From the NCBI GenBank assembly GCA_004114245.1, contig QZWS01000040.1, forward strand, positions 1 through 35,515: a stretch of 35,515 bases of DNA, given 5' to 3'. This DNA comes from Zoopage sp. CT-All. Its lineage: Eukaryota > Zoopagomycota > Zoopagomycetes > Zoopagales > Zoopagaceae. The notes under the pieces were generated by a model, which had not been told where the DNA came from, made no database searches, and saw only the letters and a program-made list of their open reading frames with translations. The translations under genes and the position numbers were made by a program. Positions within the stretch are counted from its first letter, which is position 1; each line of letters opens with the position of its first letter. Of this stretch, positions 1,230 through 34,120 are shown one piece after another.

Positions 1230-1832
1230 ATGACCCTTTGCCGCGCGACATGCATCCTGCTATTTGCCGTCATTGCTGCTAAAAGCGTAGCTGTTGAGGC
1301 AAGCTCCAGCTCCAATGATCTGCTGAAAACGCCAAGTGCCCTGGACCTGAGAGCTTACCATGCCGGTGGATTTGTTCCACAGAGCATGGACGTACAGGCC
1401 CCTACAGAACTTGACGAATCCGATATTGGCTTTGATGGTGCTGGCGTGGGATATCTAGGACATCCTTTTGCCAAACCACGGGCTACCTCCTCCAATGATA
1501 TCACCAAGCGATACCCACCCACTGGCCACGGCGTGACTTGGTCAAAGTTTCCATCCTCTTTCAGTAAAGGCGAGCTTGCTAAGTATGCCATGACTTCACC
1601 GCTGGGTGCCACTCCCATTCAACGCACTTACCCCATTCAAAACCTAAATATGCCATTGACGCACCAAGTCCTTGGTAATAGACACTCCCATTTTTACGGC
1701 ACACACCAGCCCAACTCTCCATCACATCAAGCTACTGTCCTGCAGCAAATTACTCAAAATCCAACTGTGCCACCGGTGTACCAAGGCCTTGGCAGTGGAC
1801 ACTCCCATCCTTACAGCGCACCCCAGCTATGA
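1230..1832 (+). CDS. Candidate secreted effector-like protein with RAYH motif (gene C)
   Basis: A 200-residue intronless ORF. Residues 1-24 form a signal peptide: a short basic start, a hydrophobic core (ILLFAVIAA) and small residues before a likely cut near VEA-SS. RAYH occupies residues 41-44, shortly after the predicted cleavage point. Residues 93-94 are a dibasic KR that a Kex2-type protease could use. The C-terminal third is an imperfect tandem repeat: HQVLGNRHSHFYGTHQ recurs as YQGLGSGHSHPYSAPQ about 40 residues later, rich in His, Pro and Gln. No enzymatic domain or cysteine pattern is visible. The leader aligns with that of genes A (19005-20132) and B (28496-29629) in protein and DNA. 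RAYH is, from memory, a motif of Synchytrium candidate effectors; the effector role is inference. The gene sits between transposon relics. Confidence 0.65.
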   Translation: MTLCRATCILLFAVIAAKSVAVEASSSSNDLLKTPSALDLRAYHAGGFVPQSMDVQAPTELDESDIGFDGAGVGYLGHPFAKPRATSSNDITKRYPPTGHGVTWSKFPSSFSKGELAKYAMTSPLGATPIQRTYPIQNLNMPLTHQVLGNRHSHFYGTHQPNSPSHQATVLQQITQNPTVPPVYQGLGSGHSHPYSAPQL

Positions 1833-5176: not shown

Positions 5177-6517
<1,341 letters not shown>

Positions 6518-17370: not shown

Positions 17371-18402
17371 TCAGTCGCTTCTGTACCCAGATATCAATGC
17401 CAAACTTGAAACAGGTGCTTGCGGGGCTGTGGAACGAACCTTGTCCGCTGTAAAGTGAATACCGCCTGGTATGGACGCGATCATGACCTGGATGTTTCTC
17501 AAGGTATCGGGGTGGAGAAATCCCATCGTTTCAGGGAGCGGGGGTAGCTCGGGAACCGGCGCCTCGATACCTTTCGCCTCACTGGCATCAACCCGCACTC
17601 CCATCTCACCTTCCTCCATCGCTTCATCATACTCCAATTGATGCTGAGCCGGCGGCGCTATCAGGGCCAGCTTGGCAGCCTCGCGTTCTGCTTTAGCCTC
17701 GATCCGCTGCCTCATCTCCTGCTCAGCCTTGCGTCGAAACTCTTCCTTGGCCCTCGGGTCGGGATCCTCGCTCGCCCATCGCACATTGATCATTTCGTTG
17801 GCATCAAGGGATTGATTTGACATGGCCTCCTTGGCAAACTCCGCCTCGTGGCGCCAAGCATATGTCACGAATGAGACGCCGCGGCCCTCGAGCACCTTGA
17901 TGCGGACAATGTAGCCGAACGGATCAAAGTGCTTCCGCAAAACCTCCTCCGCGTCAGGATAATCGGCATTGATCCGACCAACATACAGCGTCGTATGCTC
18001 GCGTAAAAACGACCCTAAACCACCGAGATCCTCCCTTAACTGCGCAAATAGATCCCTGCCAAAGCAGTCTTTGGTCACCGGCACTCGATCGGATGGCTCG
18101 GGCAAGCGATGCCAGTATCGGCACTGATACCCGTGAGGACACGATCCACGGGCAAAAAACAGACAAATAAACGTTTCCTTGCCGCCGGCACGGGTTCTTC
18201 CGGCATCCAACGCGACGTCGACTTTGGTGGTTGGTCGCTGGCGCGAGATCTTGGTGGTGTCGCCGCCAGACCAGCGGTGGTACCAAAGGTTGTACACGGT
18301 GCCCATTGGCGCGGCCATCTGACGATTCGGGCCATGAACTGTCTCCGGATCGACTTGAATGCGTGCCGGCCGGGAGTCCCAGTCTTCGGGGTTCTTGGAC
18401 AT
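17371..18402 (-). CDS. CWC2: Pre-mRNA-splicing factor Cwc2 (RBM22-like)
   Basis: A component of the Prp19-associated complex that contacts U6 snRNA and the catalytic core of the activated spliceosome. The 343-residue intronless ORF has the expected order. First comes the N-terminal Torus region (YNLWYHRWSGGD, DAGRTRAGGKETF). A CCCH zinc finger follows (CLFFARGSCPHGYQCRYWH, about residues 80-98), then the linker DCFGRDLFAQLREDLGGLGSF. An RRM follows (TLYVGRINAD, then RGVSFVTYA as RNP1), and last FAKEAMSNQSLDANEMINVRWASEDPDP. After a charged helix (EEFRRKAEQEMRQRIEAKAE) the C-terminal ~90 residues are poorly conserved. The promoter lies in DNA duplicated in front of RPC2. An intron-rich genome needs this factor, yet the gene itself has none. 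Confidence 0.93.
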   Translation of the reverse strand: MSKNPEDWDSRPARIQVDPETVHGPNRQMAAPMGTVYNLWYHRWSGGDTTKISRQRPTTKVDVALDAGRTRAGGKETFICLFFARGSCPHGYQCRYWHRLPEPSDRVPVTKDCFGRDLFAQLREDLGGLGSFLREHTTLYVGRINADYPDAEEVLRKHFDPFGYIVRIKVLEGRGVSFVTYAWRHEAEFAKEAMSNQSLDANEMINVRWASEDPDPRAKEEFRRKAEQEMRQRIEAKAEREAAKLALIAPPAQHQLEYDEAMEEGEMGVRVDASEAKGIEAPVPELPPLPETMGFLHPDTLRNIQVMIASIPGGIHFTADKVRSTAPQAPVSSLALISGYRSD

Positions 18403-18527
18403 GGTGTTTTGGAATGTCGACTCTCTGCAGCTGACTGCTTTAACCCAGGTGTTGCTGGGTTGTGTAAGATCAGGGTATAGAATCTCTGCATTTGTCAGAA
18501 GGCAAGTTGTGTTTACTCTCCTTTATA

Positions 18528-18831
18528 CTGCTGGATTATTAATGCTATGTCATCACCTTGATGATGTTTTGGTTCTTCTGGGTTGGGCTCCAGGCTGTTG
18601 AGTGTGACAGTCTCTTTTCTTCCTGTCATGTCAACGCCAGTGTTGGCTAATGCACCTAATTGAACTACATTCCCTGATCATACTCTTCACCTATACCTAC
18701 CTCCTCTACCGCCGAGTCAGTCATCACACTTGCCCTCCTTTCATACTGTTGGATTACTAATGCTATGTCACCATCTTGATGATATCTTGCTCATTTAAGT
18801 TCAATTGGGTTCCAGACTGGTGAGTCTGACC
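18528..18831 (-). repeat. Tandem promoter-like module upstream of CWC2
   Basis: Two diverged direct copies (about 18528-18608 and 18735-18831) share, on the minus strand, CAGNCTGGANCCCAA, a CATCA-TGRTGACAT dyad, AGCATTANTAATCC and ACAGTAT(A/G)AAAGGAG. The proximal copy has a proper TATA sequence (TATAAAG, 18531-18537 on the plus-strand coordinates) about 130 bp before the CWC2 start, and is the likely core promoter. The distal copy has the mutated TATGAAAG. A single homologous module stands before RPC2 at 29963-30060. Confidence 0.6.
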
Positions 18832-19004
18832 AAGCCATCGCTCCTGCTAGCTGCTTCTCTCCTTGAACATGTTGTATTGCTTTAGGGGGCCAACAGCTTT
18901 GAATGGGTTGGATTGAAGGAGGCATGTCATAGTCAGCCAGAGGCAGTGGCGTAGAATTACTTGGCTGACAATTAAAGTACAAATACATGAAGCAAGCAAT
19001 CAAT

Positions 19005-20132
19005 TTATTTCACCCTATTTTTAACAGGTCGAAACTTGCCGTCAAAGAAATGGTGCCACACCAAGTGACATTTGTAGTGTCTCATCGATCCAGTAAATCG
19101 AGAGCACCATTGACATGTAAAGCACTTCTTTTCAAAATGTCGATGGCCACTAAACTCATCCAATGTCAGTCCTCCTTTCTGACAAATTAGGCAGCTGTGA
19201 TTTGGCCCCTCGAATATAGTATGCTCTTGGCTACCTTCTGGAAGTATTGCATGATCAAGGACCAGGTGATGAAGGAGATGACGAGGTGCAAAAACTTCGT
19301 CACAACCTTCGAATGGACAGGGAGCTTTAAAATCCGGTAAGTTATGACTTTTCCGAGCATGTGCTTCAATCTTAAGCGGATGTAAAGGCTTACCACACTG
19401 AGGGTGAGGGCAAGGTATAAGAAGCTGTTTCAGGCGGCTTATGGGCACACGACCTTTTAGATCGCTGTTATCGGGCTGCTGCTCTGCGTCCATCGTCATG
19501 GCTGGAGCAATCGGCATATCATTGGGCAATGCTATTTTACCCGGAATGGGAGTGTGATTGTGTTCTAATCCTTTGTCTGCAGTTGAGGGAGTACGGCGGC
19601 CACGTCGCGATCGCTTCTGGGGAGGCGGGCTATCAGGTGCACTATCCATCTCCTTTCTTTTCACTACGGGTGCACTGGATGTTGCATCCAAAGGATGTGA
19701 AGGTGAATCGAGGCTAGGGGGTGGTACTGCTGTGGGTATCGGCATTGGATTCACTGGCTGGTGGTGATGCTTGGTGGGTGAATTGACATCCTCAGCTCTG
19801 TCTGGGGTGGGTGCTTGGTATTCTCGGCGAGGAGGGGAGTGGGCGCTGCCATTATCAGGGACGGGAACTGGAGGCGGTATCCCCCGGCTTTGAGGCGCAT
19901 CAATGGGACCAGGAAGAAGACCGGGGTATAGAGAAGGGAACGGACGCTTGATTCTGCCACCATGTTTATCGTGAAATGCAAGGTTGGCACCAACCACGTC
20001 CCAATAGGCATAGTGGTGCATGTTCTCGTCCGGTTCTCCAGGCAAAGCAGAGCTGGCGCTTGCCCAAACGGTTGCGCTTCTCGCAGTAAAGGCGGCAAAA
20101 AGCATGATGCTAATTACGTAGTAGATTTTCAT
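19005..20132 (-). CDS. Secreted C2H2 zinc-finger protein, effector candidate (gene A)
   Basis: A 375-residue intronless ORF. Residues 1-24 are a signal peptide (hydrophobic core VISIMLFAAF, likely cut near VWA-SA). A YAYW sits at residues 41-44, the position of RAYH in gene C. A dibasic KR lies at 62-63. Residues 75-150 are Pro/His/Ser-rich and look disordered. KRK (158-160) and KRSRRGRR (173-180) form a typical bipartite nuclear localisation signal. From residue 241 there are four C2H2-like units: C241/C246/H258/H263, C272/C277/H289/H294, C314/C317/H330 with C337, and C340/C343/H356/H360-361. A secretion signal together with a nuclear signal and zinc fingers suggests action in another cell's nucleus; this is inference. 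The inverted duplicate is at 28496-29629. Confidence 0.75.
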   Translation of the reverse strand: MKIYYVISIMLFAAFTARSATVWASASSALPGEPDENMHHYAYWDVVGANLAFHDKHGGRIKRPFPSLYPGLLPGPIDAPQSRGIPPPVPVPDNGSAHSPPRREYQAPTPDRAEDVNSPTKHHHQPVNPMPIPTAVPPPSLDSPSHPLDATSSAPVVKRKEMDSAPDSPPPQKRSRRGRRTPSTADKGLEHNHTPIPGKIALPNDMPIAPAMTMDAEQQPDNSDLKGRVPISRLKQLLIPCPHPQCGKPLHPLKIEAHARKSHNLPDFKAPCPFEGCDEVFAPRHLLHHLVLDHAILPEGSQEHTIFEGPNHSCLICQKGGLTLDEFSGHRHFEKKCFTCQWCSRFTGSMRHYKCHLVWHHFFDGKFRPVKNRVK

Positions 20133-20193
20133 TGCTTATTGAATGTCTATGTGATTTCTCTGGTGATTCTGTGGTGATTCTCGAAGGATGTGG

Positions 20194-21799
20194 GTCAGAA
20201 CAAGATTTTTGACTGAAGTCGATGATCTCGCGACATGTTGAACTTTGCAAATCAAACTGAAATATATTTCCTTAAATATAATTAATCTATAGCAGGCTAC
20301 AAATTAAATTGAAAGAAAATCTATTGTGGCCCATTGTGAGGGCTCCAAGATAAATCTGATGAAGCTTGTATGTATTGGGACCAACACTGGTGCTGGTCGA
20401 ATGAAGATAGAAAAGACTGCCATCAGAATCATCTAACTAGTCCTCACACCCATTGTAGTCAACCTAAGTTACCAAGTTGCAGTATTCCTCAATATGGCCG
20501 TTATATAGTACTCCAGTTTCTGTCCTCTCAATGAAAAAGCAGTATGATAAAAGCAAAACTACGACACCACGTATTCCCATGTCGTCCCCGACCATAGTAC
20601 TGACGTGGCTGTCACTGGCTTAACTTCGCAGATCGGACGGGATGCGGTGCTTCTCAGTGCATATGGCCGTAGTTAGAATGGGTTGCTGCAGAATATATAT
20701 AATTCAAAAGCCAAAATTAATGCAAAAAATCAAATTTGCCTATTTTTTGCTCTTGCATGCCTTACAGCAATCTTCCCACCTGCTGGAATACTCCTAGATG
20801 ACCCTGAATCCCCATCTTCTACTAAAAGTCAATAAAATAGATAATGTTTGTTATACTCGTGGATGTGAAAGGGACTTGGGCAGGAATACAATGGAAGTCT
20901 ATGTATTCCTAGTCCCGGAAAACACACCAAAGAGAAAAGAGCACAGTCACAACCCCTGTCATGGCTGTGCACCACAATGTTGTTCATATATCCTTTATCT
21001 CTATATCTAAAATAAAAGTATTGGCTTCTCTTCTTAAGTAATCTGTGTTGTATTGGAGTGAATTTCTTATTGGGGTAGCAGAAAGACATGGAATGCAATC
21101 TGCATTGTGGTGTAGAAGGACGGTTAAGAGCAGTCTCTTTTCTGTCAATCTAAAATATATAGAGAGTTCTGTTGATCCTGACCCCCCCTTCCCTAACACA
21201 TGATGTCATGCCCGCCCCAGGGTAGGGGGACCCGGGGGCAGAATAGGATGTCAATGGTGCTGTGGAGGGGCGGGTAAACTTGTGTTGATATACAAGGAAA
21301 ACACAAGACTGCTTCTACCGGGGTATGATCATGACACATGACACCTTACCCACCCCAGCACCACATGCATTATTTACACAATAAGGCTGCTTAAGCTGGC
21401 TTATATAGCTAGAACTTAGTCTTTGGGGTTTGGGGTTTCTTGACTTTCTTGAGATTCTCAACTTGACAATCTGTAATATGCAAAAAGTCCTAAAATAAAA
21501 TTAATAGTATATAAGCTATTTATGCACTAGTTAGCTAATAAATATACATTGCACTTCACAGTATTACTGACACTGCTTTCATTGCATGCAAACCTTACAA
21601 TATGCATATTCCAACACCTCCTAGGATGCTCCAGAAATGCTACATATGACATACAAAGCTTGTGTTAAATAACCTCCTCAGTACTATTCTTGTCTGCTTG
21701 GAGTAGGTGTTCCAACAGTGCTAACCTAAACGTCTTGCTATACTAGCCTTCCTAATAAACTATAATGCATGACATTCAACACCACTCACAACCGCCACC
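20194..21799. other. AT-rich intergenic region with repeat debris
   Basis: No gene is supported in this 1.6 kb. It contains the dispersed palindrome copy at about 20374-20397, a possible solo LTR (21204-21468), and otherwise short AT-rich sequence with frequent stops in all six frames. Short open frames at 20798-21098 on both strands have no recognisable motif. The first 50-100 bp must include the upstream region of gene A, which shares only its last ~60 bp with that of gene B. Confidence 0.5.
21204..21468 (+). mobile_element. Possible solo LTR
   Basis: A 265-bp segment begins TGTCATGCCC and ends AACTTGACA, so its ends form the short TGTCA...TGACA inverted repeat typical of retroviral-type LTRs. 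It has a TATA-like TTATATAG at about 21401-21408 and a U5-like pyrimidine-rich end (TTCTTGACTTTCTTGAG). No matching 5-bp target duplication is present (CATGA against ATCTG), and no primer-binding site is obvious. It may be an LTR left after recombination, or a chance match. Confidence 0.35.
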
Positions 21800-21886
21800 A
21801 TGGCTAAAGCACCAAAGACATTGCAACAAAAGCTAATGGATCTGGTTGCACAGAGCCATGCCAAAGCAAATAAGGCCGCCACATGA
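21800..21886 (+). CDS. Small ORF with near-ideal start context
   Basis: A 28-residue basic, helix-prone peptide (LQQKLMDLVAQSHAKANK) begins in CCGCCACCATGG, an almost perfect Kozak context that is rare by chance in this AT-rich surround. No family recognised. It could be a tiny protein, a first exon whose partners I cannot place, or the start of a dead element ORF. It ends 30 bp before the peroxiredoxin stop on the opposite strand. Confidence 0.25.
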   Translation: MAKAPKTLQQKLMDLVAQSHAKANKAAT

Positions 21887-21916
21887 CTCACCAGCTTGGC
21901 AGTTTCATACATTTGC

Positions 21917-22639
21917 CTACTCCTTATTCACGCTCTCAAAGTATTCCTTTGCCTCGGCCGCATTCGCCTTCATTGCCTTGCTCCCACGTTTCCAATTCGC
22001 AGGACACACCTCGCCGCCGTGCTGATCCACAAACTGCACAGCCTCAACCACCCGCAGCGTCTCATCCACGCTCCGACCCACTGGAAAGTCATGCACATGG
22101 GCCACGCGCAGCACGCCCTTGGGATCAACGACGAATACACCACGCAGCGCCGTGCCATTGTCATCCAGCACGCCGAATGATCTGGAGATGTCATGGGTGA
22201 GGTCGGCCACCAGCGGGATCCGGAGACCTGCGATGCCGCCTTCGCGCCGCGGGAGCTTCATCCAGGCAAGGTGCGAGTGGGCGGAGTCCACGCTCACGCC
22301 GACGACGTTGGCCCCCAGTCGATGGAATTCCTCGATGCGGTCGGAAAAGGCCAGGAGTTCGGTGGGGCACACAAAGGTGAAGTCGAGCGGGTAAAAGACC
22401 AGCACGAGGTATTTGTTGGCAAAGTCGTGGGAAGAGAGCGTGGCGAGGGAGAGGTCAGGGTTGGCGCAGGCGGCGGACCAGGACGGGGCGGGATGGCGCA
22501 CCCGGGCAACGGGGGCGGGAGGGGCTGCGGTAGACTGGAAATATCGGGCGGCAATGGCCCCAGCGGAGGCGGGCGCGCGCAGAGAGGCGCTGCTGCGGAG
22601 GGCGGGAATAACCCGGCTGCGGACGATATTGCCGATCAT
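21917..22639 (-). CDS. Typical 2-Cys peroxiredoxin, mitochondrial (PRDX3-like)
   Basis: A thiol peroxidase reducing H2O2 and peroxynitrite with thioredoxin. The 240-residue intronless product opens with a ~35-residue Arg/Ser/Ala-rich amphipathic presequence lacking acidic residues (MIGNIVRSRVIPALRSS), pointing to the mitochondrial matrix. The peroxidatic cysteine (about C91) is in FYPLDFTFVCPTEL and the resolving cysteine (about C211) in GEVCPANW, so it is the typical 2-Cys class and not 1-Cys. The GGIAGLRIPL loop corresponds to the GGLG motif and EYFESV near the C-terminus to the YF motif, both linked to hyperoxidation sensitivity in eukaryotes. The Met at 22639 fits the targeting peptide. 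The upstream ~530 bp is shared with the divergent homeodomain gene. Confidence 0.92.
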   Translation of the reverse strand: MIGNIVRSRVIPALRSSASLRAPASAGAIAARYFQSTAAPPAPVARVRHPAPSWSAACANPDLSLATLSSHDFANKYLVLVFYPLDFTFVCPTELLAFSDRIEEFHRLGANVVGVSVDSAHSHLAWMKLPRREGGIAGLRIPLVADLTHDISRSFGVLDDNGTALRGVFVVDPKGVLRVAHVHDFPVGRSVDETLRVVEAVQFVDQHGGEVCPANWKRGSKAMKANAAEAKEYFESVNKE

Positions 22640-22865
22640 GTTGGCGAGAAAACGTCGTCAAGGAGCTGACGTCGCTGCATGCTCCCCGCTTGTGACGCCA
22701 CCAGAGCTTTCTCCAGGGGATGGTTTAGCAAGGCTGCGACCTGCTTTTAATCACTTTATTGAGACTTTTATCATGAATGGGTCCTAGTTGATGGCGATGC
22801 TGCCGGCAAAGCACTACTCACAAGGAGCACTATGGCTTATCGCCGGCCGATCTGCATGCGCATGT

Positions 22866-22925
22866 TATAGCACATTGCATTGCATCGCATCGCATCGCAC
22901 TGCATCGCACTGCGCACTGCACACT
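22866..22925 (+). repeat. Imperfect GCAYY pentanucleotide microsatellite
   Basis: About a dozen units of GCATT, GCATC and GCACT in tandem lie between the divergent peroxiredoxin and homeodomain genes. Unit variation suggests an old, slowly degrading array. It could vary in length among isolates. Confidence 0.7.
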
Positions 22926-23166
22926 TTCATGCTTATGAACTGGTTGTGGTGTCCCGCGATCGGCGCCATAGCAAACAATCTTTCGGGTCCCACGACGGGT
23001 CCCACATCGCCTATAAAATTCAAACCTCCGCCGCCATGCCGCCCCGCTCCGTCGCCTCTCCACTCTCCCGCCGCAACAGCCGCAACCCGCGAAAACCGCC
23101 GAATAATCGCTAATAGCAGCTAATACTCTGCGATCAACCGCTCCTCCGCCGCCGCTGTAATCCACA

Positions 23167-26002
23167 ATGGCTGCGGCCCAAACCGCCTCCTTCAGAAGCC
23201 GTCCAAATACTGCGGCCGGCGAGAATCCGCTCGAATCTGTATCCTTCCCAGTGTCAAATATCGCCATTCCTACTATCTCCACCCGCGATGCAATGGTCGC
23301 GCCCGGTCTGCTTCTTACCCCCGCAGAAGGGCCGACCATGTCTGCTCGCGAGGATGCGTCGTCGCCGTTCAATGGCAAGACTATGGCTGCGTCTCCCACC
23401 AGCAACACCGCTTATTTTAAACCGCAGATGCTGCAGCGCCAATGGCTGGGTGCGATGGTGTCGTCGATCCATCGCCCGCAGCTGTCCACGTCCTCAACCG
23501 CCACCTTCTTCCACGGTGGCATGCACAGTCACCGGAGCAGTATCGCGGCATCCCCCGCACAGACTCCCTACCACGAGCATCCCGCTCCCGTCGGCTCCGA
23601 AATGGCACAGCACTCGGCAAAGGCGCATGCGCAGTTCGGATATACCGTTCTGCCCACCGCATCGCTGTCATCCGATTCATCCGGATCAATGTCCCACTAC
23701 CACCAGGCCGTTCGCAAGATCTCGCTGCAAGGGAGAAATGCTGTTACTTCTTCTGTCAACGCGCTAAGCATGAGTCCTTCCGCAAAGCCATTGCACCGAG
23801 CCCTGCCCTCAGAGGTGGTGGATCGTCGATATTCGCCAAAACTCTCCCAGAAGCATGAATTTGCAGGACCGGAAGAGACAGAGGCAGTGCGTCGCGAAGC
23901 ATATGACAAAATTGCAGCGGCCACGATTGCGTCGATCTTGCCGCAAAAGACCTGGCATAACGCCAGCGAGGAAGCCGTTCCAGCCACGAACGCTTTTGCC
24001 TCCCGGCCAAATACCTGCGCAACCGCTATTCCAATTGAACGGAAAGCGTCGCCGCACTACCTAGATGTCCTCTCGGTGGAGTTTGACCGTGCTCGTGGGT
24101 ATCCATCGCAAGGCACGCTTCAATGCCTAGCTCGTGACCTCGGTATGACGGTGCACGAAGTTCAGGTAACGAAGCCCGGATTTGGCGAGCTTACCACTCA
24201 CTATTATCTAGACCTGGTTTGACAAGCGTCGCAAGCGCATGATCATGGAGCAATCACAAGGAGCGACCCCGGCAACCTTCAGCCCACCCTCTGGATTTTG
24301 GCCGCATCACCATCAGCAGCAATACCACTGGCCCAGTGCAGCGGCTCCGCAGCCGAATTTTGCCCCGTTTGGGCTTGTTGGTCCCGGCCAACCGGCGCCG
24401 ATGCAGCCTGTCGCTTACATGCCCGTCATGACTCAGAACGGGTTGATTATGATGCCTGTCGCGGGCACCTCGCAGCCTATCGCACCAGCAGCAAACGTCT
24501 TTGGCCATCCCATGCCTTACGCCCCAGCTCCCGTTGGATACCCGTTTCCCGACTTGACCGGCATGTATCCCGCGGCTTCGAATCATCCTGTCAATGTCTC
24601 TACCCAACAGCACTTTTCGACCAGCAACGAGCAAACGAGCAGGACTCAAGGCGATAGAGCGGCTGTTCAGCCCAGTGCCATCGCCCAGCACGCACCGCTT
24701 CATCAATACCCTGATACGAAGCGATCGCGCCCCGCCGATTTACGCAGCCCTCCCGCGCCGCCCTGCGACTTTGCTCAGTCTGATGAGGCCGCAGTGAATT
24801 GGTCACACGACGTCCAGACCCAGCAGCAGCCATCCACTCATGCGATTGCCAACGTCTCCTCGCTCGATCCGCGATCGAAGCTTGGTGTATTTGCCGGTGC
24901 GCACAACGTCGATCACAGAAAGCGCACTATCGACGAGTCCATCAGCGCATCCGAAGTCCCTACGGACCAGACCAGTTCTGACGAGTTTCGCTGGCTGCGC
25001 AATTGGATCCAAACTGGACACTATCTTGATGATCGCAGAGTCCTTCCGCGGGCGCAGCTCGATCCAAAAGATGAGGCTGAGATTGCCGAAATTGCAACCC
25101 GTGAGATTCAAGCTCGAGCTGAGCGAATTCGACAATCCTGCAACGGGAGTGCGGTCCGTCATTTCACCCCACCAAATCTGAATGCTGCAGATGCGACATC
25201 AACCTGTGGCGTGGTCGGACAATCTGAAGATGGCGAAGTTAAATGTCGACAGATATTTATGCACAACAAGCGCTCTAGTGATGCAAGCTTGGCCCTGACG
25301 TCTCCGCGTCAGCATGGTCGACGATTCTCTCCTCGTGGGCACGGAGCTCTGCCGATGAGTCTTGGAACGCCGCGGGACTTTTCGCCATTAGGAAACGTGA
25401 TAGGAACCGTTCCGTTTTCGCACCAACTGAAGCCAATGCCACCATTGGCTCGCATTGAAAGCAGAGCACTATCCCCTAATGATAAGCGGCAGCACACCGG
25501 AACTGAATTCGACTCGGCTCGCTCCGGCGATCGCGAGACGATTCCGTGTAAGCGCGTGCAGTACGCTGCTCGTCGCAAAGTGAGCCACCGAGCGGAACGT
25601 GACCGACCGTCAAGTATCGAGGAGGAAGCGCTTTCTTTTGCTGAAGCGCCCGAGTCATCGAGCAAGAAATATTTGCGGACACTGCGCAAGGTTAGTACGG
25701 GCGAGTGGGTCACACGGAAAGCAAAGATTATAATTCAACGCGTCCAACCTCGCCAGAATGCTACGGTATTGCATCGACGGTCATCGACTGCAAACAAGAT
25801 CGTTGTCCCGACGGCCCAGGACTCCCCTTTGGCTGTTGAAGCGAATGCCCCGACGAGGAGCAAGCGTTCCTTCGCAGCACTACGCTCCTTCACCGGACCC
25901 AATCGAAAGGCTTCTTTGGCTCCCAATACCAAGGAAACCACTAGCGCGCCGCCATCGCTACCAAAAAACTGGCGTAAAATTCTACATACATGGCAGCGAT
26001 AA
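23167..26002 (+). CDS. Homeodomain protein with non-canonical recognition helix
   Basis: Two exons (23167-24165 and 24212-26002) joined over a 46-nt intron encode 929 residues. The intron sits inside the homeodomain: ERKASPHYLDVLSVEFDR, GYPSQGTLQCLARDLGMT and VHEVQ come from exon 1, and TWFDKRRKRM from exon 2. The domain spans about residues 282-342. W48, F49 and R53 are kept, but position 51, normally an invariant Asn that contacts adenine, is Lys (K338). The N-terminal 280 residues are Ser/Ala/Pro-rich. The region after the domain is Pro/Gln/His-rich (HHHQQQ), and the C-terminal ~150 residues are basic (KKYLRTLRKVSTGEWVTRKAK). I recognise no second domain. Nuclear regulator is the likely role; targets are unknown. 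Without the splice both halves look like unrelated hypotheticals. Confidence 0.8.
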
Positions 26003-26655
26003 AGCGCCTGTTGTTAATAGTTCCGATTCGACCGCGTCTGATCTATATCAGATGGCGCATGACATGCGCCAATGACGGTTCTATCGGAGGCGAATGTCTC
26101 CTTCGGTCAAGCTTGTGCCGGATTCTAAGCCAGCTGTGCAGTATCTCTCACTGCATGGTGCCAAGCTATCGACCTCCCTTACCACCCGTGTGCCCGTGCC
26201 GGATTTAAAGCCAGCCGTACATTGTATTCGCTTATTGATTCTAAGCAGCTGTACGGTGCCGGGCCGCGACGTATCTCTTACTTCCTGTCTATTCTATCAG
26301 CCTCGTCAGCTATGTGATTATGTATCTTGTTGCTTAGCAATTAACGTACGGCCCCTATTGGCCATAAATACATTTACAATTCTAGAACTTACTGTTTGAC
26401 TGTTTGTGTAAGGGCATGCTTTAGATTGTTGCGTATATCCTGCAGGGATAGTGTTGTTGGATTGAGATGTTTGGCGGATGTTTTTTGAACCTTTAAATAC
26501 ATTTAGTATATTAGTATTGACATAGTAAGAAAAGTGCAATATCATTCTAATCCCATTCAATCAATAGTTGCTACGCCTATGTCAATAGTCCGAGCCGTTT
26601 CCCGATTTGACTCTCGATCTGCCCACAATGGGTGGCTGTCTCCCATAACATCAGA
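26003..26655. other. Intergenic region with a short direct repeat
   Basis: No gene seen. GTGCCGGATTCTAAGCCAGC (about 26109-26128) recurs as GTGCCGGATTTAAAGCCAGC about 90 bp later, with a third partial GATTCTAAGCAGCTGT near 26237. The rest is AT-rich and probably holds the 3' UTR of the homeodomain gene and the promoter of the ATG14-like gene. Confidence 0.5.
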
Positions 26656-27981
26656 ATGCCGCAGATCCCATGCGGCGTCTGCAATCAGCAACACACTTCG
26701 TTTCTATGCTGGAGCTGCATCGGAATCATGTACAAGGCCATCTTTTCCCATTAGACCTCACAGCCTTGCGATTTAGACTAGCTGAGCACAGGACGCGAGC
26801 AGCGCGGCGACGCCAAGATCGCGACAGCGCTCTCGTCAGCCTCTCCTCCGCCTTCATCGGCAAGCCATTTCGATTGGCTATGGTGAGAGCGGACGTGGAG
26901 GTGCGTAAGCAGCGGATTGAAGAGAAACGTGGCAAGCTACGGCGACTTGAGACGCTTTGGCACTCGGGTATGTCGTGTGCCATATCCCACTCATATCTTT
27001 GACGGATGTCAATCGGGCTGGCGTTCAGAGAATGGGCGATTGAATCAGATACGAGAGTGTTTATCTGACGCGAAAGAGGTGATTGTGGGGTCTGAGGCGT
27101 TCGCAGCCGAGGTGCAGCAGGGAATGGACGATCTGGCGCAGTTCGAGGCGCATACGCGGTTGGCAGCCTCCCGTGAGATTCTCAAGGTGCTACGGCGAGA
27201 CCTCTCGAAGGGCATAGCTCGGTCTTTTATGCTTTCCCGACGCGAGCATCATAACATGGGCACAGAGGTGGTGACAATTCATGACCGTGAGCTCGACATT
27301 GCTCGTCTTCTTGCCCCAGAAACCGCATACATCTCAGACGACATCGAAGAGTTCAACATCGTGGCTGAGCATACTGCACGGCTCATAGCTATTCTCGCTC
27401 GGTATCACAATGTTCCGTTGCCGTACGAAATCGTCCAGAAGGGTCACGAAATTCGTCTGCGGCCAGCGTACGGGCTGGTAGAGTCTCGACACAGTGTGGG
27501 AATACGCGCTCGGGTTCAAGCTACTGGCTCCAAGTTTGGCGGTGTCAGGATGGGCAGCGTGAGACTGGATGCCTCTGGGCTGATGCAGGGGTTGAGTATG
27601 CTGTGTGCAGACGTCATGGAGCTGTGCCGCTACACGGGGGTGTCTGCGTCACTGGCTTGGGCAGATGTGCTTCGTCCGTTGTATAATCTCGAGCGATGCT
27701 GTTCATCGACCCAGTCCATGCCGCCTGATCGTCGACAGCAGCGACTTGGTGACGGCTCGTCATCGGAGGTTGCCAGTTTCGAATACGCAGGCATTTTGGC
27801 GATGATGCACACTCTTGACTCGCCCTCCAAGCCCATTGCAGGTCCACCAGGGCCATCTGGAGAATCTCCAGCCAGTAGCATGGTGATCACCGAGGCAATA
27901 GATTCGTGGGACCTAGTCGATGTCGTGCTTCCGCCCACCCCAGCCGAGCTGGCATCTCTGGAGCGAGGTCAGCAGCGATAA
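26656..27981 (+). CDS. ATG14: Atg14/UVRAG-like subunit of a PI3-kinase complex
   Basis: Atg14 directs the Vps34 lipid kinase complex to autophagosome formation sites. Three exons (26656-26729, 26777-26967, 27029-27981; introns 47 and 61 nt) give 405 residues. The first exon yields an N-terminal CGVCNQQHTSFLCWSC, the CxxC...CxxC pair typical of Atg14. A long charged helix follows across exon 2 and into exon 3 (AEHRTRAARRRQDRD; VRADVEVRKQRIEEKRGKL), a coiled coil for Vps30/Beclin binding. The C-terminal half has DDIEEFNIVAEHTARLIAILARYHNVPLPYEI, the conserved block of the Atg14/UVRAG family. No C2 domain is present, arguing against UVRAG/Vps38. The last ~90 residues are low complexity. Splice sites were placed by frame and motif, so exon 1 is the least secure part. 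Confidence 0.72.
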
Positions 27982-28181
27982 CTGATAAGGGTTTAGACCA
28001 CATTAGAAAGGCTCGGTAGCCATAGTGAGGTGAAATATGTATAAATTACATCAGCGCTTTACAGTTTGCTCCAGGTAACATAGGCAGGAATTCCATGGCT
28101 TTTGCAGATAAGAAGGGTATTTAGAAAGCACAGGGTTTTGGTTGATGTGAATTTTATAGATATTGGATAGGAAGCTTAGTA

Positions 28182-28361
28182 CAGAGTTCTTCCTTGATAT
28201 AATGACACCTAATTGTTCAGCAGTTTAATGTCACTATATCAAGGGTGTCACTATGTTAAGGGAGAAATATAAATGTTCAAATCTAATTGTTCAGTGGTTT
28301 GATGTCGCTATATCAAGGATGTCACTATTCTAAGGCGTCACTATATCACGAGAGAACTCTG
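28182..28361. mobile_element. MITE with Tc1/mariner-type ends
   Basis: A 180-bp element has ~29-bp terminal inverted repeats that begin CAGAGTTCT and include TGATATARTGACRCCT (five mismatches between the ends). It is flanked by TA on both sides (28180-28181 and 28362-28363), the target duplication of Tc1/mariner elements. The inside is a diverged direct repeat of about 55 bp (CTAATTGTTCAG..GTTT.ATGTC.CTATATCAAG). It has no coding capacity, so it is non-autonomous. It lies 135 bp before gene B, inside the probable promoter, and is absent from the matching place upstream of gene A. Nothing else is recognised between 27982 and 28434. Confidence 0.75.
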
Positions 28362-28447
28362 TACACGTTATTTGTTGTCCCTCTGAACACGGGGACAACA
28401 TTTGCTTTTACTATTTTTGCTCTGATCATCCCCACCACATCCTTCGA

Positions 28448-28480
28448 GAATCACCACAGAATCACCAGAGAAATCACATA
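28448..28480 (+). repeat. 11-bp triplicate in the leader of gene B (also gene A)
   Basis: GAATCACCACA, GAATCACCAGA and GAAATCACATA stand head to tail, ending 15 bp before the start codon. The same block is conserved exactly in front of gene A at about 20148-20180. It may be a regulatory site or part of the 5' UTR. Confidence 0.5.
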
Positions 28481-28495
28481 GACATTCAATAAGCA

Positions 28496-29629
28496 ATGAA
28501 AATCTACTACGTAATTAGCATCATGCTTTTTGCCGCCTTTACTGCGAGAAGCGCAACCGTTTGGGCAAGCGCCAGCTCTGCTTTGCCTGGAGAACCGGAC
28601 GAGAACATGCACCACTATGCCTATTGGGACGTGGTTGGTGCCAACCTTGCATTTCACGATAAACATGGTGGCAGAATCAAGCGTCCGTTCCCTTCTCTAT
28701 ACCCCGGTCTTCTTCCTGGTCCCATTGATGCGCCTCAAAGCCGGGGGATACCGCCTCCAGGTCCCGTCCCTGATAATGGCAGTTCCCACTCCCCTCCTCG
28801 CCGAGAATACCAAGCACCCACCCCAGACAGAGCTGAGGATGTCAATTCACCCACCAAGCATCACCACCAGCCAGTGAATCCAATGCCGATACCCACAGCA
28901 GTACCACCCCCTAGCCTCGATTCACCTTCACATCCTTTGGATGCAACATCCAGCGTACCCATAGTGAAAAGAAAGGAGATGGATAGTGCACCTGATAGCC
29001 CGCCTCCCCAGAAGCGATCGCGACGTGGCCGCCGTACTCCCTCAACTGCAGACAAAGGATTAGAACACAATCACACTCCCATTCCGGGTAAAATAGCATT
29101 GCCCAATGATATGCCGATTGCTCCAGCCATGACGATGGACGCAGAGCAGCAGCCCGATAACAGCGATCTAAAAGGTCGTGTGTCCATAAGCCGCCTGAAA
29201 CAGCTTCGTATACCTTGCCCTTACCCTCAGTGTCACAAGTCCTTTGATCTGCTTGATATTGAAGCACATGCTCGGAGTAGTCATAGGTCAACGACGTTTA
29301 AATTTCCTTGTCCATTCAAAGGTTGTGACAAAGCTTTTACTCCTCGTTCGTTTCTTTTTCACCTAGCCACTGTTCATGCGATACTTCCAAAAGATAGCCA
29401 GGAGTATGAGATATTCAAAGAACCAAGCCACCACTGCACGGATTGTCAGAAAACGGACGTGAAATTAGATGAGCTTGGTTTACATAGACATGGAGATAGG
29501 TTATGTTTTACATGCCAATGGTGCCCTCGATTCACTGGATCGAGGAGAAACTATCAGCTTCACTTGCCGAGGCACCATTTCTTTAATGGCAAGATGCGAA
29601 ATAGTAAGCAAAAGGGTGAAATGAATTGA
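28496..29629 (+). CDS. Secreted C2H2 zinc-finger protein, effector candidate (gene B)
   Basis: A 377-residue intronless paralogue of gene A. The first 226 residues (signal peptide, YAYW, dibasic KR, Pro-rich linker and bipartite nuclear signal) differ from A at only four positions. From about residue 227 the two proteins differ at roughly 60 of 149 positions. All four zinc-finger-like units are nevertheless retained with the same spacing (two CX4C-X11-HX4H units, one CX2C-X12-H unit, one CX2C-X12-HX3-4H unit). The C-terminus is basic. The changes fall between the ligands, so the fold looks selected while the surface varies. A MITE lies in the likely promoter. The stop is 532 bp before RPC2 on the same strand. 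A role in host manipulation is inferred from architecture only. Confidence 0.75.
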   Translation: MKIYYVISIMLFAAFTARSATVWASASSALPGEPDENMHHYAYWDVVGANLAFHDKHGGRIKRPFPSLYPGLLPGPIDAPQSRGIPPPGPVPDNGSSHSPPRREYQAPTPDRAEDVNSPTKHHHQPVNPMPIPTAVPPPSLDSPSHPLDATSSVPIVKRKEMDSAPDSPPPQKRSRRGRRTPSTADKGLEHNHTPIPGKIALPNDMPIAPAMTMDAEQQPDNSDLKGRVSISRLKQLRIPCPYPQCHKSFDLLDIEAHARSSHRSTTFKFPCPFKGCDKAFTPRSFLFHLATVHAILPKDSQEYEIFKEPSHHCTDCQKTDVKLDELGLHRHGDRLCFTCQWCPRFTGSRRNYQLHLPRHHFFNGKMRNSKQKGEMN

Positions 29630-29962
29630 TTGCTTGCTATCGTGTGTTTGTACTTCAATTGTCGGCCAAGTGAGTCTACGCTGCTGACTATGGCGTCTCT
29701 CCTTCAACCCAACGCATTCAAAGCTGTATGCGCAGCTCCAACAATGCCACAGTGCCGCGTTGCAACCTTGAATGGGATGCCCCATACTTCAGTGCCTTGC
29801 CTCCACCTCCTCCTCCTCACTCCCCTAACGCAATACAGCATATTCAAGGAGAGAAGCGGCCGGCAGAAATCAGACATTGGCCCCAACACCAGCCCCAGCC
29901 TCACACCCCCACACCCCACACTGTAGTCACGCAATCTCCCTGTTGTGATAAGAGCGACGGCT

Positions 29963-30060
29963 TAGTCAGACTCAACAGCCTGGAACGCAACAGAACCCAG
30001 AAGAACCAAGACGTCATCAAGTGATGACGTAGCATTAGTAATCCGACAGTATAAAAGAGA
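29963..30060 (+). promoter_or_regulatory. RPC2 promoter module with CRE-like palindrome and TATA box
   Basis: Homologous to the modules upstream of CWC2. It contains a perfect dyad ACGTCATCA-AG-TGATGACGT (30011-30030), each arm carrying an ATF/CREB-type ACGTCA half-site. AGCATTAGTAATCC follows, then TATAAAA at 30050-30056, about 110 bp before the RPC2 start. In both CWC2 copies the dyad has decayed, so the CRE-like version is specific to RPC2. Confidence 0.55.
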
Positions 30061-30161
30061 ACGAGCGCAACTTGTCTCCTGACAAATAGAGAAATTCTAT
30101 ACCCTGAACACATCTGTGATCTTACAAAACCCAACACTCCCAACCCCTGACTGCCCCCAAC

Positions 30162-33100
30162 ATGGCCCAGCCGCTGGCCGCCGTGCCAACCATCGAGGCA
30201 AGCCCCCTTGCTGCCCGCCCACTCATTCCAACGCGCAAAAGGACAAGTGGAGGCTGGTGCCGGCGTTTCTGCGCGTCAAGGGCCTCGTCAAGCAGCACCT
30301 CGACTCGTTCAACTTTCTCTGCGACCACGAGCTGGCCGCGATCCTGCGCGCCAACTGCAAGATCACCTCGGACGTCGACCCGTCGTTCTTCCTCCGGTAC
30401 ACCGCGATTCGCGTCGGCCGGCCGGACCGCGGCGGCACGGATGCCGACGTCGCGAACAAGATCATCACGCCGCACGAGTGCCGCCTCCGCGACCTCACCT
30501 ACTCGGGCGAGATTCTGGTGGACATCGAGTACACCCGCGGCAAGCACACCGTCCGGCGCCGCGGCGTTCCGATCGGCCGGATGCCCATCATGCTGCGCAG
30601 CGACAAGTGCGTGCTGAAGGGGTGCGACGAGGAGCTGCTGGCGCGCTACCAGGAATGCCCGCTCGATCCCGGCGGCTACTTTGTCGTCAAGGGGACCGAG
30701 AAGGTCATCCTCGTGCAGGAGCAGCTCTCGAAGAACCGCATCATCGTCGAGGAGGACAGCAAGGGCCTCTTCGTCGCGTCCGCCACGAGCTCGACGCACG
30801 AGCGCAAGTCCAAGACGTATGTCCTGCTCAAGAACGACCGCGTGTTCCTCCGCCACAACTCGATCGGCGAAGACCTGCCCGTGGTGGTGGCGCTGCGGGC
30901 GATGGGCATCCAGTCCGACCAGGAGGCGGCGATGCTCGTCGGCGGCGGCGACTGCGCCATCCTGGACAAGTTTGCGCCGTCGATCGAGGACTGCTCCCGC
31001 CTCGGGATCTTCACGCAGAAGCAGGCGCTGGAGTACGTCGGCTCGCGCATCAAGATCCCGCGCCGCGTCAACGGTCAGCGCCGGCCGGCGTCCGAGGAGG
31101 CGCTGGACATCCTCGCCGCCGTCATCCTGGCGCACATCCCGGTGCCGCGCCTCGAGTTTCAGCCCAAGGCCGTCTACATCGCGCACATGGTGCGCCGCGT
31201 GCTGCTGGCCTCCATCCCCCAGTGCCGCAAGCACCAGCTCGACGACCGCGACTACGTCGGCAACAAGCGTCTGGAGCTTGCCGGCCAGCTGCTCTCGCTG
31301 CTGTTCGAGGACCTGTTCAAGAAGTTCAACGCCGACGTCAAGGCAAGCATCGACAAGGTGCTGCGCAAGCCGAACCGGGCGCAGGAGTTTGACGTGCACC
31401 CGCAGCTGCTGTTCCACGCGGCGCACATCACGTCCGGCTTTGTGCGCGCGATCAGCACCGGCAACTGGACGCTGAAGCGGTTCAAGATGGAGCGCGCCGG
31501 CGTCTCGCACGTCCTTTCGCGGCTGTCGTGGATCTCGGCGCTTGGGATGATGACGCGCATCTCGTCGCAGTTCGAAAAGACGCGCAAGGTGTCCGGGCCC
31601 CGCGCGCTGCAGCCCTCGCAGTGGGGCATGCTGTGTCCGAGCGACACGCCCGAGGGCGAGGCGTGCGGCCTGGTCAAGAACCTTGCTCTGATGACGCACA
31701 TCACGACGGACGTTCCGGAGCGCCCGCTGGCCGCGCTGGCCGTGATGCTCGGCGTGCAGGACGCCACGCTGCTCTCGGGCCGCGAGATCTACGCCGAGGG
31801 CACGTACCTCGTGTTCCTCAACGGCCAGATCATTGGCGTGCACCAGCGGCCGCACAAGTTCCTCGAGGACTTTCGCGTTGTGCGCCGCGCGGGCCGCCTC
31901 TCGCCGTTCGTCAGCATCTACCTGAATGCGCACCAGCGCGTGATCTGCATCTCGGGCGACAACGGCCGCATCTGCCGCCCGCTGCTGATTGTCGAGAACG
32001 GCGTGCCCCGGTGCACGCAGCGCCACATCAAGGTGGGTCTGGCTGGTTGCTAATTGCGTACTGACGCGCGTTGCAGAGGCTGATCGCCGGCACGATGACA
32101 TTCGACGACTTTCTCAGGCGCGGCCTCGTGGAGTACGTCGACGTCAACGAGGAGAACGACGCCAACATTGCGGTCTACGAGCGTGACATCACCGCGGCCA
32201 CCAGCCATCTGGAGATCGAGCCGTTCACGATTCTGGGCGCCGTCGCCGGCCTGATCCCGTATCCGCACCACAACCAGTCGCCACGCAACACGTAGACCCG
32301 GCACCCAGCACCCGGCACCCAGCGCTGACGCCTTGCCTTGCAGATACCAGTGCGCCATGGGCAAGCAGGCGATTGGCGCGATCGGCTACAACCAGCTCAA
32401 CCGCTTCGACACGCTCCTGTATCTCATGGTGTATCCGCAGCGGCCCATGGTTGCGACCAAGACGATCGAGATGATTGGCTACGACAGGCTACCCGCGGGC
32501 AATGCCGCGGTGGTTGCCGTCATGAGCTACAGCGGGTACGACATTGAGGACGCGCTGGTCATCAACCGGGTGAACATGCCATCCGAACGCATGCGCGGTG
32601 CTCATCCTGCCTAGTCCTCGATGGATCGCGGCTTTGGCCGCTGCCAGGTCATGCGCAAGTACACGGCCATGGTGAAGAAGTATCCCAACGGAACGTATGC
32701 CGCCTGTTGCTCGCATTGCTAACACGCAGCCATGCTAGCTTTGACCGCCTCGCCGACCCGGGCAAAGACCCCGCGACGGGCCTGACGCTAGAAAAACACG
32801 CGATCCTTGGCGCCGACGGCATTGCCGAGGTGGGCGAGAAGATCCGGCCCGGCCAGGTGTACATCAACAAGCAGACGCCGACCAACGCAAACGCCGATCT
32901 GAGCATCGGCGTCAATCCGCTGGACACGCTGTTCAAGAGCACGCCCATGACGTATCGCTCGTCCATTGCGGGCTACGTCGACAAGGTCGGCGGAGGCCTT
33001 GCCATTGCGCGGCACACTCACGCATGCTAGGTGCTGCTCACGACGGGCGAGAACGACCAGACGCTGATCAAGGCGCTGATCCGCCAGACGCGGCGGCCCG

Positions 33101-33900: not shown

Positions 33901-34120
33901 CTGCGTGGATTGAATGGGACTGCGTGGATTGAATGGGTCTGCGTGGATTGAATGGGACTGCGTGGATTGAATGGGTCTGCGTGGATTGAATGGGACTGCG
34001 TGGATTGAATGGGTCTGCGTGGATTGAATGGGACTGCGTGGATTGAATGGGTCTGCGTGGATTGAATGGGACTGCGTGGATTGAATGGGTCTGCGTGGAT
34101 TGAATGGGTCTGCGTTTGCT
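33901..34120 (+). repeat. 19-bp minisatellite with 38-bp higher-order period
   Basis: Eleven full tandem copies of CTGCGTGGATTGAATGGG(A/T) and a partial twelfth start 25 bp after the RPC2 stop. The last base of the unit alternates A,T,A,T through ten units and ends T,T, so the array grew by amplifying a 38-bp dimer. It is otherwise almost perfectly homogeneous. It separates the convergent RPC2 and DENND6 genes. Confidence 0.9.

Follow-up and report, generated by a model that had tools for sequence, protein, structure and literature searches.

An inverted pair of putatively secreted zinc-finger genes in Zoopage sp. with a near-identical 5′ part and diverged fingers

The contig QZWS01000040.1 of the fungus Zoopage sp. 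CT-All (assembly GCA_004114245.1), analyzed over its whole length of 35,515 nucleotides and hereafter called the window, carries two genes in inverted orientation, here named A and B, which share a signal-peptide-like start, a Pro-rich spacer, a basic stretch and four C2H2-like zinc fingers. We observed that these genes are nearly identical from the 5′ leader to the first finger and strongly diverged beyond it, at silent as well as at other sites, and we propose that an old duplication was probably followed by a recent ectopic gene conversion of the 5′ part. The window is one contig (designated C288) of the 419 that make up this 8.62 Mb genome, the assembly of which may be incomplete, and all comparisons of gene copies reported here are between A and B or with family members from this single assembly.

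Two inverted genes with a shared layout

Gene A (19005..20132, minus strand) is a single open reading frame (ORF) of 375 amino acids and gene B (28496..29629, plus strand) a single ORF of 377 amino acids with the same layout, at the positions and in the inverted orientation given by an earlier reading of this DNA (the original prediction). Together they form the arms of an inverted repeat of 1165 nucleotides, 91% identical, with 8241 nucleotides between the arms. The signal-peptide-like segment, delineated by inspection and aligned with family members, comprises residues 1-27 of B (28496..28576, plus strand) and lies at 20052..20132 (minus strand) in A. Inspection also revealed a basic stretch resembling a bipartite nuclear localization signal at residues 158-180 of B (28967..29035, plus strand), within which the clusters KRK and KRSRRGRR can be seen by eye; the localization-signal pattern tried gave no match there. 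The four C2H2-like fingers of B (29216..29575, plus strand; residues 241-263, 272-294, 314-332 and 340-360) were recognized from their ligand sets and profile matches, and those of A lie at 19053..19412 (minus strand), with profile matches of their own and the ligand Cys and His conserved between the two proteins at 16 of 16 positions, as the original prediction had stated.

A step in divergence at the first zinc finger

Up to residue 226 the two proteins differ at four positions (89, 97, 154 and 156), the number that had been claimed, and thereafter at 59 of 147, where about 60 had been expected, giving a total of 63 up to residue 373. When nucleotide differences are counted per compartment with gaps ignored, there are 0/61 in the 5′ leader, 6/687 in codons 1-229, 110/446 in codons 230-377 and 13/97 in the next 97 aligned bases of the 3′ flank. 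The best single change-point is at position 29221 of B (29201-29233 within 2 log units), at the first zinc finger; it separates 8/787 differences from 127/516, with a log-likelihood ratio of 101.2 versus a maximum of 9.9 among 1000 shuffles. The switch is abrupt, as originally described, but its predicted place near residue 230 has to be moved: with all nucleotides considered the break falls at codons 236-246, because just two changes (codons 230 and 238) precede codon 243. The near-identical tract accordingly spans 28435..29233 of B (plus strand), with its 3′ limit somewhere in 29201-29233, and 19395..20193 of A (minus strand), with the limit in 19395-19427 as converted from the B coordinates.

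The step is also present at silent sites. In the codon alignment the synonymous divergence (dS) climbs from 0.012 over codons 1-229, where 2 silent and 4 other changes occur, to 0.37 over codons 230-373, with 26 silent and 85 other changes, and reaches 0.65 in codons 281-325. This combination of a low 5′ and a high 3′ value is the one that had been set down beforehand as the mark of conversion or exchange. Likewise, 2 of 215 silent codons are changed in the 5′ part versus 11 of 84 in the 3′ part (Fisher 2.4e-5, for a cut picked after the data were seen), and a block of low silent divergence covering codons 2-269 is detected at p 0.0033, the lowest value attainable with 300 shuffles.

The limits of the homology are asymmetric. 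It begins 61 bases upstream of the ATG, remains near-perfect to the first finger and then falls, but can still be followed across the 3′ coding part and for several hundred bases beyond the gene, pieces of a solo long terminal repeat (LTR) included; the diverged 3′ flank of B that is homologous to that of A lies at 29630..29866 (plus strand), in aligned pieces up to 29727 and at 29822-29866. On the side of the most similar part homology thus stops at -61, yet it extends past the diverged part, which disfavors a recent whole-gene duplication, since the opposite pattern would be expected from one.

A large family in the same genome

The original prediction had also suggested looking for further members across the genome, and these proved abundant: a search with the member on contig C98 recovered 72 matches at E <= 0.01, the final ones being weak, which by our manual grouping correspond to 42 loci spread over 33 contigs. 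Internal stops occur in 17 of the 72 matched rows, some members are truncated, and one of the 18 members compared (C54) is without an ATG at the aligned start. Readable members share the leader from about -60, the signal-peptide-like start, a Pro/Gln/His-rich spacer and at least one Cys/His finger module. A third member within the window (1230..1832, plus strand) is a fingerless, truncated ORF of 200 amino acids. Outside this genome, searches with B or with a six-member family alignment recovered no protein relative at E 0.01, in a procedure that requires shared 5-residue words and similar length and that distant relatives may escape.

Among five intact members (with broken members and C345 excluded), dS is higher in the 3′ than in the 5′ part in 9 of 10 pairs, the exception being C350/C161. 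A block of low silent divergence was found at p<0.05 in 4 of 11 pairs, namely A/B (0.0033), C98/C262 (0.0066), C262/C79a (0.020) and C161/C262 (0.030), and the three blocks outside A/B all sit upstream of the first finger. After correction for 11 tests A/B alone survives in this block test; in the run test C98/C262 (0.0021) survives the same correction and C262/C79a (0.0065) fails it. When DNA identities are compared, the spacer exceeds the first finger in 20 of the 28 family pairs with a spacer identity >=0.6, counted from the 55 pairs formed by 11 of 16 module-bearing loci (one locus was set aside for representing the same gene as another, and four for having the module too near the locus start).

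In the 20 of 22 finger modules that have 56 residues, the five Cys never vary, nor do three of the four ligand His, and the fourth His is present in 19. The family-wide count ratio for these 20 modules is 0.74, and no individual site is exceptional once 56 sites are allowed for. Modules have also been duplicated in tandem in C350 (L011/L043), which has three of them; the first two are protein-identical over the finger part and have the same stop codon, as if it had been copied along with the module.

In the pairs listed, the family homology sets in some 60 bases upstream of the ATG, and CACCACGTG is found there exactly in 8 of 18 members (by eye) and as a variant in others; the sequence upstream of about -60 is mostly unrelated among the 18, although some share more. 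We considered whether members arose as retrocopies, with which the common beginning near -60 in the listed pairs would agree; against this, no poly(A) or common 3′ end was seen by eye in seven 3′ flanks, and some members share more upstream.

The proposed gene conversion and its alternatives

As the 3′ flank is shared yet diverged, the old duplication spanned the gene plus several hundred bases downstream, and would have given rise to paralogs A and B. In the history that we consider probable, a later ectopic conversion between these inverted copies, 8.2 kb apart, overwrote the leader, signal-peptide-like start, spacer and basic stretch of one copy with those of the other, in a tract that would start where the homology ends (-61) and stop at about the first finger. 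The converted 5′ part would then keep export and targeting constant, while the fingers would keep drifting with their metal ligands held. Homogenization of the 5′ part by conversion had been one of three mechanisms originally put forward for the pair, and it is the one that the contrast in dS and in changed silent codons favors. Contig C131 carries at its end another, third copy, which has the leader and first 52 codons in common with A and B but differs from them in those codons by 3 silent and 6 other changed codons; that stretch therefore tolerates change, and the identity of A and B there is recent.

Several observations count against this interpretation. The longest-silent-run test for A/B misses significance (p 0.078), with just 13 silent codons differing, and by silent sites alone the block of low divergence extends to codon 269, inside finger 1, so that on this measure the finger border is not sharp. 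If the tract reached that far, finger 1 would show a surplus of amino-acid change, and the surplus in codons 238-269 is not significant (p 0.23). As to the wider family, p<0.05 is reached outside A/B by 3 of 10 pairs when blocks are tested and by 2 of 10 when runs are; after correction none is left in the former test and one (C98/C262) in the latter, and family pairs are not independent of each other. Finally, in 8 of the 28 pairs the finger equals or exceeds the spacer in similarity: in six of these the spacer identity is <0.65, and the other two are L049/L054 (spacer 0.74 vs finger 0.81) and L064/L066 (0.97 vs 0.99).

The best-surviving alternative, which we judge unlikely, reverses the roles of the two halves and posits a recent whole-gene duplication followed by replacement of the fingers and 3′ flank of one copy from a diverged third member. 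It would produce the same step in dS, and other members of the family also look mosaic; however, besides the fact that a recent duplication should share flank past the similar end, where homology instead stops at -61, no gene with close fingers presented itself. No donor was found in the assembly, the nearest fingers outside the pair (C270, C15 and C6) being 31-32% identical, so this mechanism, also among those originally proposed, would require replacement from a third gene without a visible donor. C270 has fingers without the 5′ module, preceded by other sequence. Contig C15 was tried as the continuation of the C131 gene and dropped, as it begins at the fingers and resembles C270.

The remaining proposed mechanism, fast diversifying selection on the fingers of an otherwise uniform pair, fares distinctly worse, and we deem it very improbable. 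The ratio of nonsynonymous to synonymous divergence (dN/dS) does rise to 2.1 in codons 230-280, and of the DNA-contact positions of C2H2 fingers (-1, 2, 3 and 6), positions -1, 3 and 6 are changed between A and B in 9 of 12 cases and position 2 in 0 of 4. Neither signal is significant: the high ratio has p 0.45, and the contact enrichment (9/12 versus 42/93 elsewhere, position 2 included) has p 0.068. Over codons 230-373 dN/dS is 0.81, and the changed fractions of silent and other sites in the 3′ part show no difference (p 0.42). Silent sites and the noncoding 3′ flank diverge as well, and the family-wide ratio points the same way; selection as the sole cause of the A/B contrast is ruled out by the silent-site step. 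The contact-position changes may still hint, short of significance, at an altered DNA specificity.

We attach a similarly small probability to an assembly artefact in which the copies are chimeric or collapsed. The assembly is in 419 contigs, and C131 breaks off within a stretch of 55 bases that matches A and B exactly, as is usual for short-read assemblies at repeats; nevertheless, A and B differ at 6 places in codons 1-229, they stand in different surroundings on one contig, and a similar asymmetry of spacer and finger recurs in other family pairs. Extreme constraint on the 5′ part at the nucleotide level, without recombination, could draw on the similarity of the leader and signal segment across 18 members and is scarcely credible given the silent and other changes of C131 there, which cover the first 52 codons only.

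Predicted function of the proteins

Within the fingers of A and B, two have the spacing Cx4Cx11Hx4H and one Cx2Cx12Hx3H, in keeping with the Cx2-4C...Hx3-5H ligand arrangement of C2H2 proteins, and one irregular finger, Cx2Cx12HxH, falls outside this rule. Profile matches in the PDB database were to C2H2 proteins of solved structure that bind nucleic acids, namely ZIC3 (2.2e-5), TFIIIA (4.7e-4), YY1 (0.0014) and SALL4 (0.018). Pulling in the other direction, the Pfam C2H2 models remain under their cut-off, with B scoring 15.8 bits against zf-C2H2_4 (cut-off 27) and A matching only DUF4729 (19.4, cut-off 26, hence also under it), and the AlphaFold model of the fingers is poor (mean predicted local distance difference test score, pLDDT, 46). 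Because the Pfam gathering score is not reached, we use the label "C2H2-like".

Based on this architecture, we propose that the A and B proteins most likely leave the cell by means of their signal-peptide-like start and bind DNA, perhaps inside a host nucleus. By analogy with MoHTR1 and MoHTR2, discussed below, the simplest reading would be export of the protein followed by its entry into a nucleus; an effector role is, like secretion, nuclear entry and DNA binding, to be taken as a prediction from sequence features.

Solo LTRs and genomic setting

Downstream of gene B lies a solo LTR of 196 bp, TGTTG...CAACA (29941..30136, plus strand), flanked by a perfect 5-bp target duplication, CTCCC, at 29936-29940 and 30137-30141; diverged pieces of the same LTR occur on the A side at 18470-18608 and 18738-18843. 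Its end lies 25 bases upstream of the probable ATG (30162, a position that assumes a short intron) of a gene for the second-largest subunit of an RNA polymerase (30116-32050; domain matches to Rpb2 domains 1-4), which we take to be the Pol III form. A query holding the LTR yielded at least 49 matches, some of them non-LTR, with 40 of 84 candidates scored. The 28 LTR loci extracted contain 35 LTR matches, 24 of them full length, and 12 of these 24 have exact target duplications. At six of the 28 loci (L016, L023, L027, L038, L039 and L040) a sense ORF with a start that looks signal-peptide-like by eye follows 50-194 bases downstream, a count given without a background rate.

The neighbors of A and B in the window are otherwise ordinary genes: beside the polymerase subunit there are a Torus/RRM protein recognized by domain matches (17374-18402), presumably a Cwc2-type splicing factor, a zinc alcohol dehydrogenase (5234-6436) and a peroxiredoxin (21920-22639). 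The pantothenate synthase of this genome points to an early-diverging fungus far from any named relative: among the at least 120 matches listed, the best from named organisms belong to Syncephalis, Thamnocephalis and Tieghemiomyces, at 46-49%, and a tree of 29 rows places the protein with a single other row and gives no further resolution. A radial-spoke search gave no signal, nor did its controls. The window further contains 17-base tandem repeats of the TGTCACTATATCAAGGG type at 28229-28348, upstream of gene B, and a minisatellite at 33901-34115 with 11 copies of a 19-base unit.

Comparison with known systems

If the above proposals are right, conversion in this pair respects a domain border, leaving the delivery half uniform and the recognition half free to vary, and does so within a large secreted finger family for which protein searches with B and the six-member alignment found no relative at E 0.01. 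On a wider and distinctly speculative view, in our estimation improbable, this early-diverging fungus would possess an extensive set of orphan genes for exported finger proteins, among them broken copies able to serve as donors. Conversion would rewrite the half for export and targeting again and again, and the finger modules would meanwhile duplicate and drift. Such a system would continually produce new secreted DNA-binding specificities behind a single delivery cassette, in a logic comparable to that of antigen-variation archives but directed at a host genome.

In the literature at hand, which consisted mostly of titles and abstract openings, we found no report of a family of secreted C2H2 proteins in which conversion is confined to the 5′ half of the genes. 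The ves1 genes of Babesia are comparable, going by the portions of the sources available, as a multigene family with segmental gene conversion (PMC12064010, PMC4066756); those, however, code for surface antigens, whereas A and B are putative secreted finger proteins. Judging by their titles, reports on the ZiF-fold effectors of Magnaporthe (PMC11213319, PMC9618136) describe another diversified family of secreted proteins with a zinc-finger-type fold. Closer in domain content are MoHTR1 and MoHTR2 of Magnaporthe oryzae, which, in the accessible part of their description, are secreted, combine a C2H2 finger with flanking basic regions, occur in rice nuclei and are tied to promoter elements (PMC7672089). 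There, secretion, nuclear localization and binding were assayed, whereas A and B are known from their sequence; furthermore, the same excerpt likens MoHTR1 and MoHTR2 to a single-finger factor (GAGA), while A and B each contain four fingers in addition to a long Pro-rich spacer.

The nearest parallel in genomic arrangement is AvrPm17 of Blumeria graminis, for which the consulted section of the account gives two inverted copies of a secreted-effector gene on 2,300-bp segments separated by 4,769 bp, proposes gene conversion between them, and counts 69 family members in B.g. tritici (PMC9335242). By this description the two systems are alike in having two inverted copies close together, proposed conversion between them and a large family. 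They differ in that the AvrPm17 copies encode identical proteins within an isolate, conversion there spreading whole variants, whereas in A and B the tract stops near a domain border and the other half stays diverged. Conversion between inverted effector duplicates was, on the same partial source (PMC9335242), already described for AvrPm17, and what the Zoopage pair would add is a tract that stops near the border between the delivery half and the fingers.

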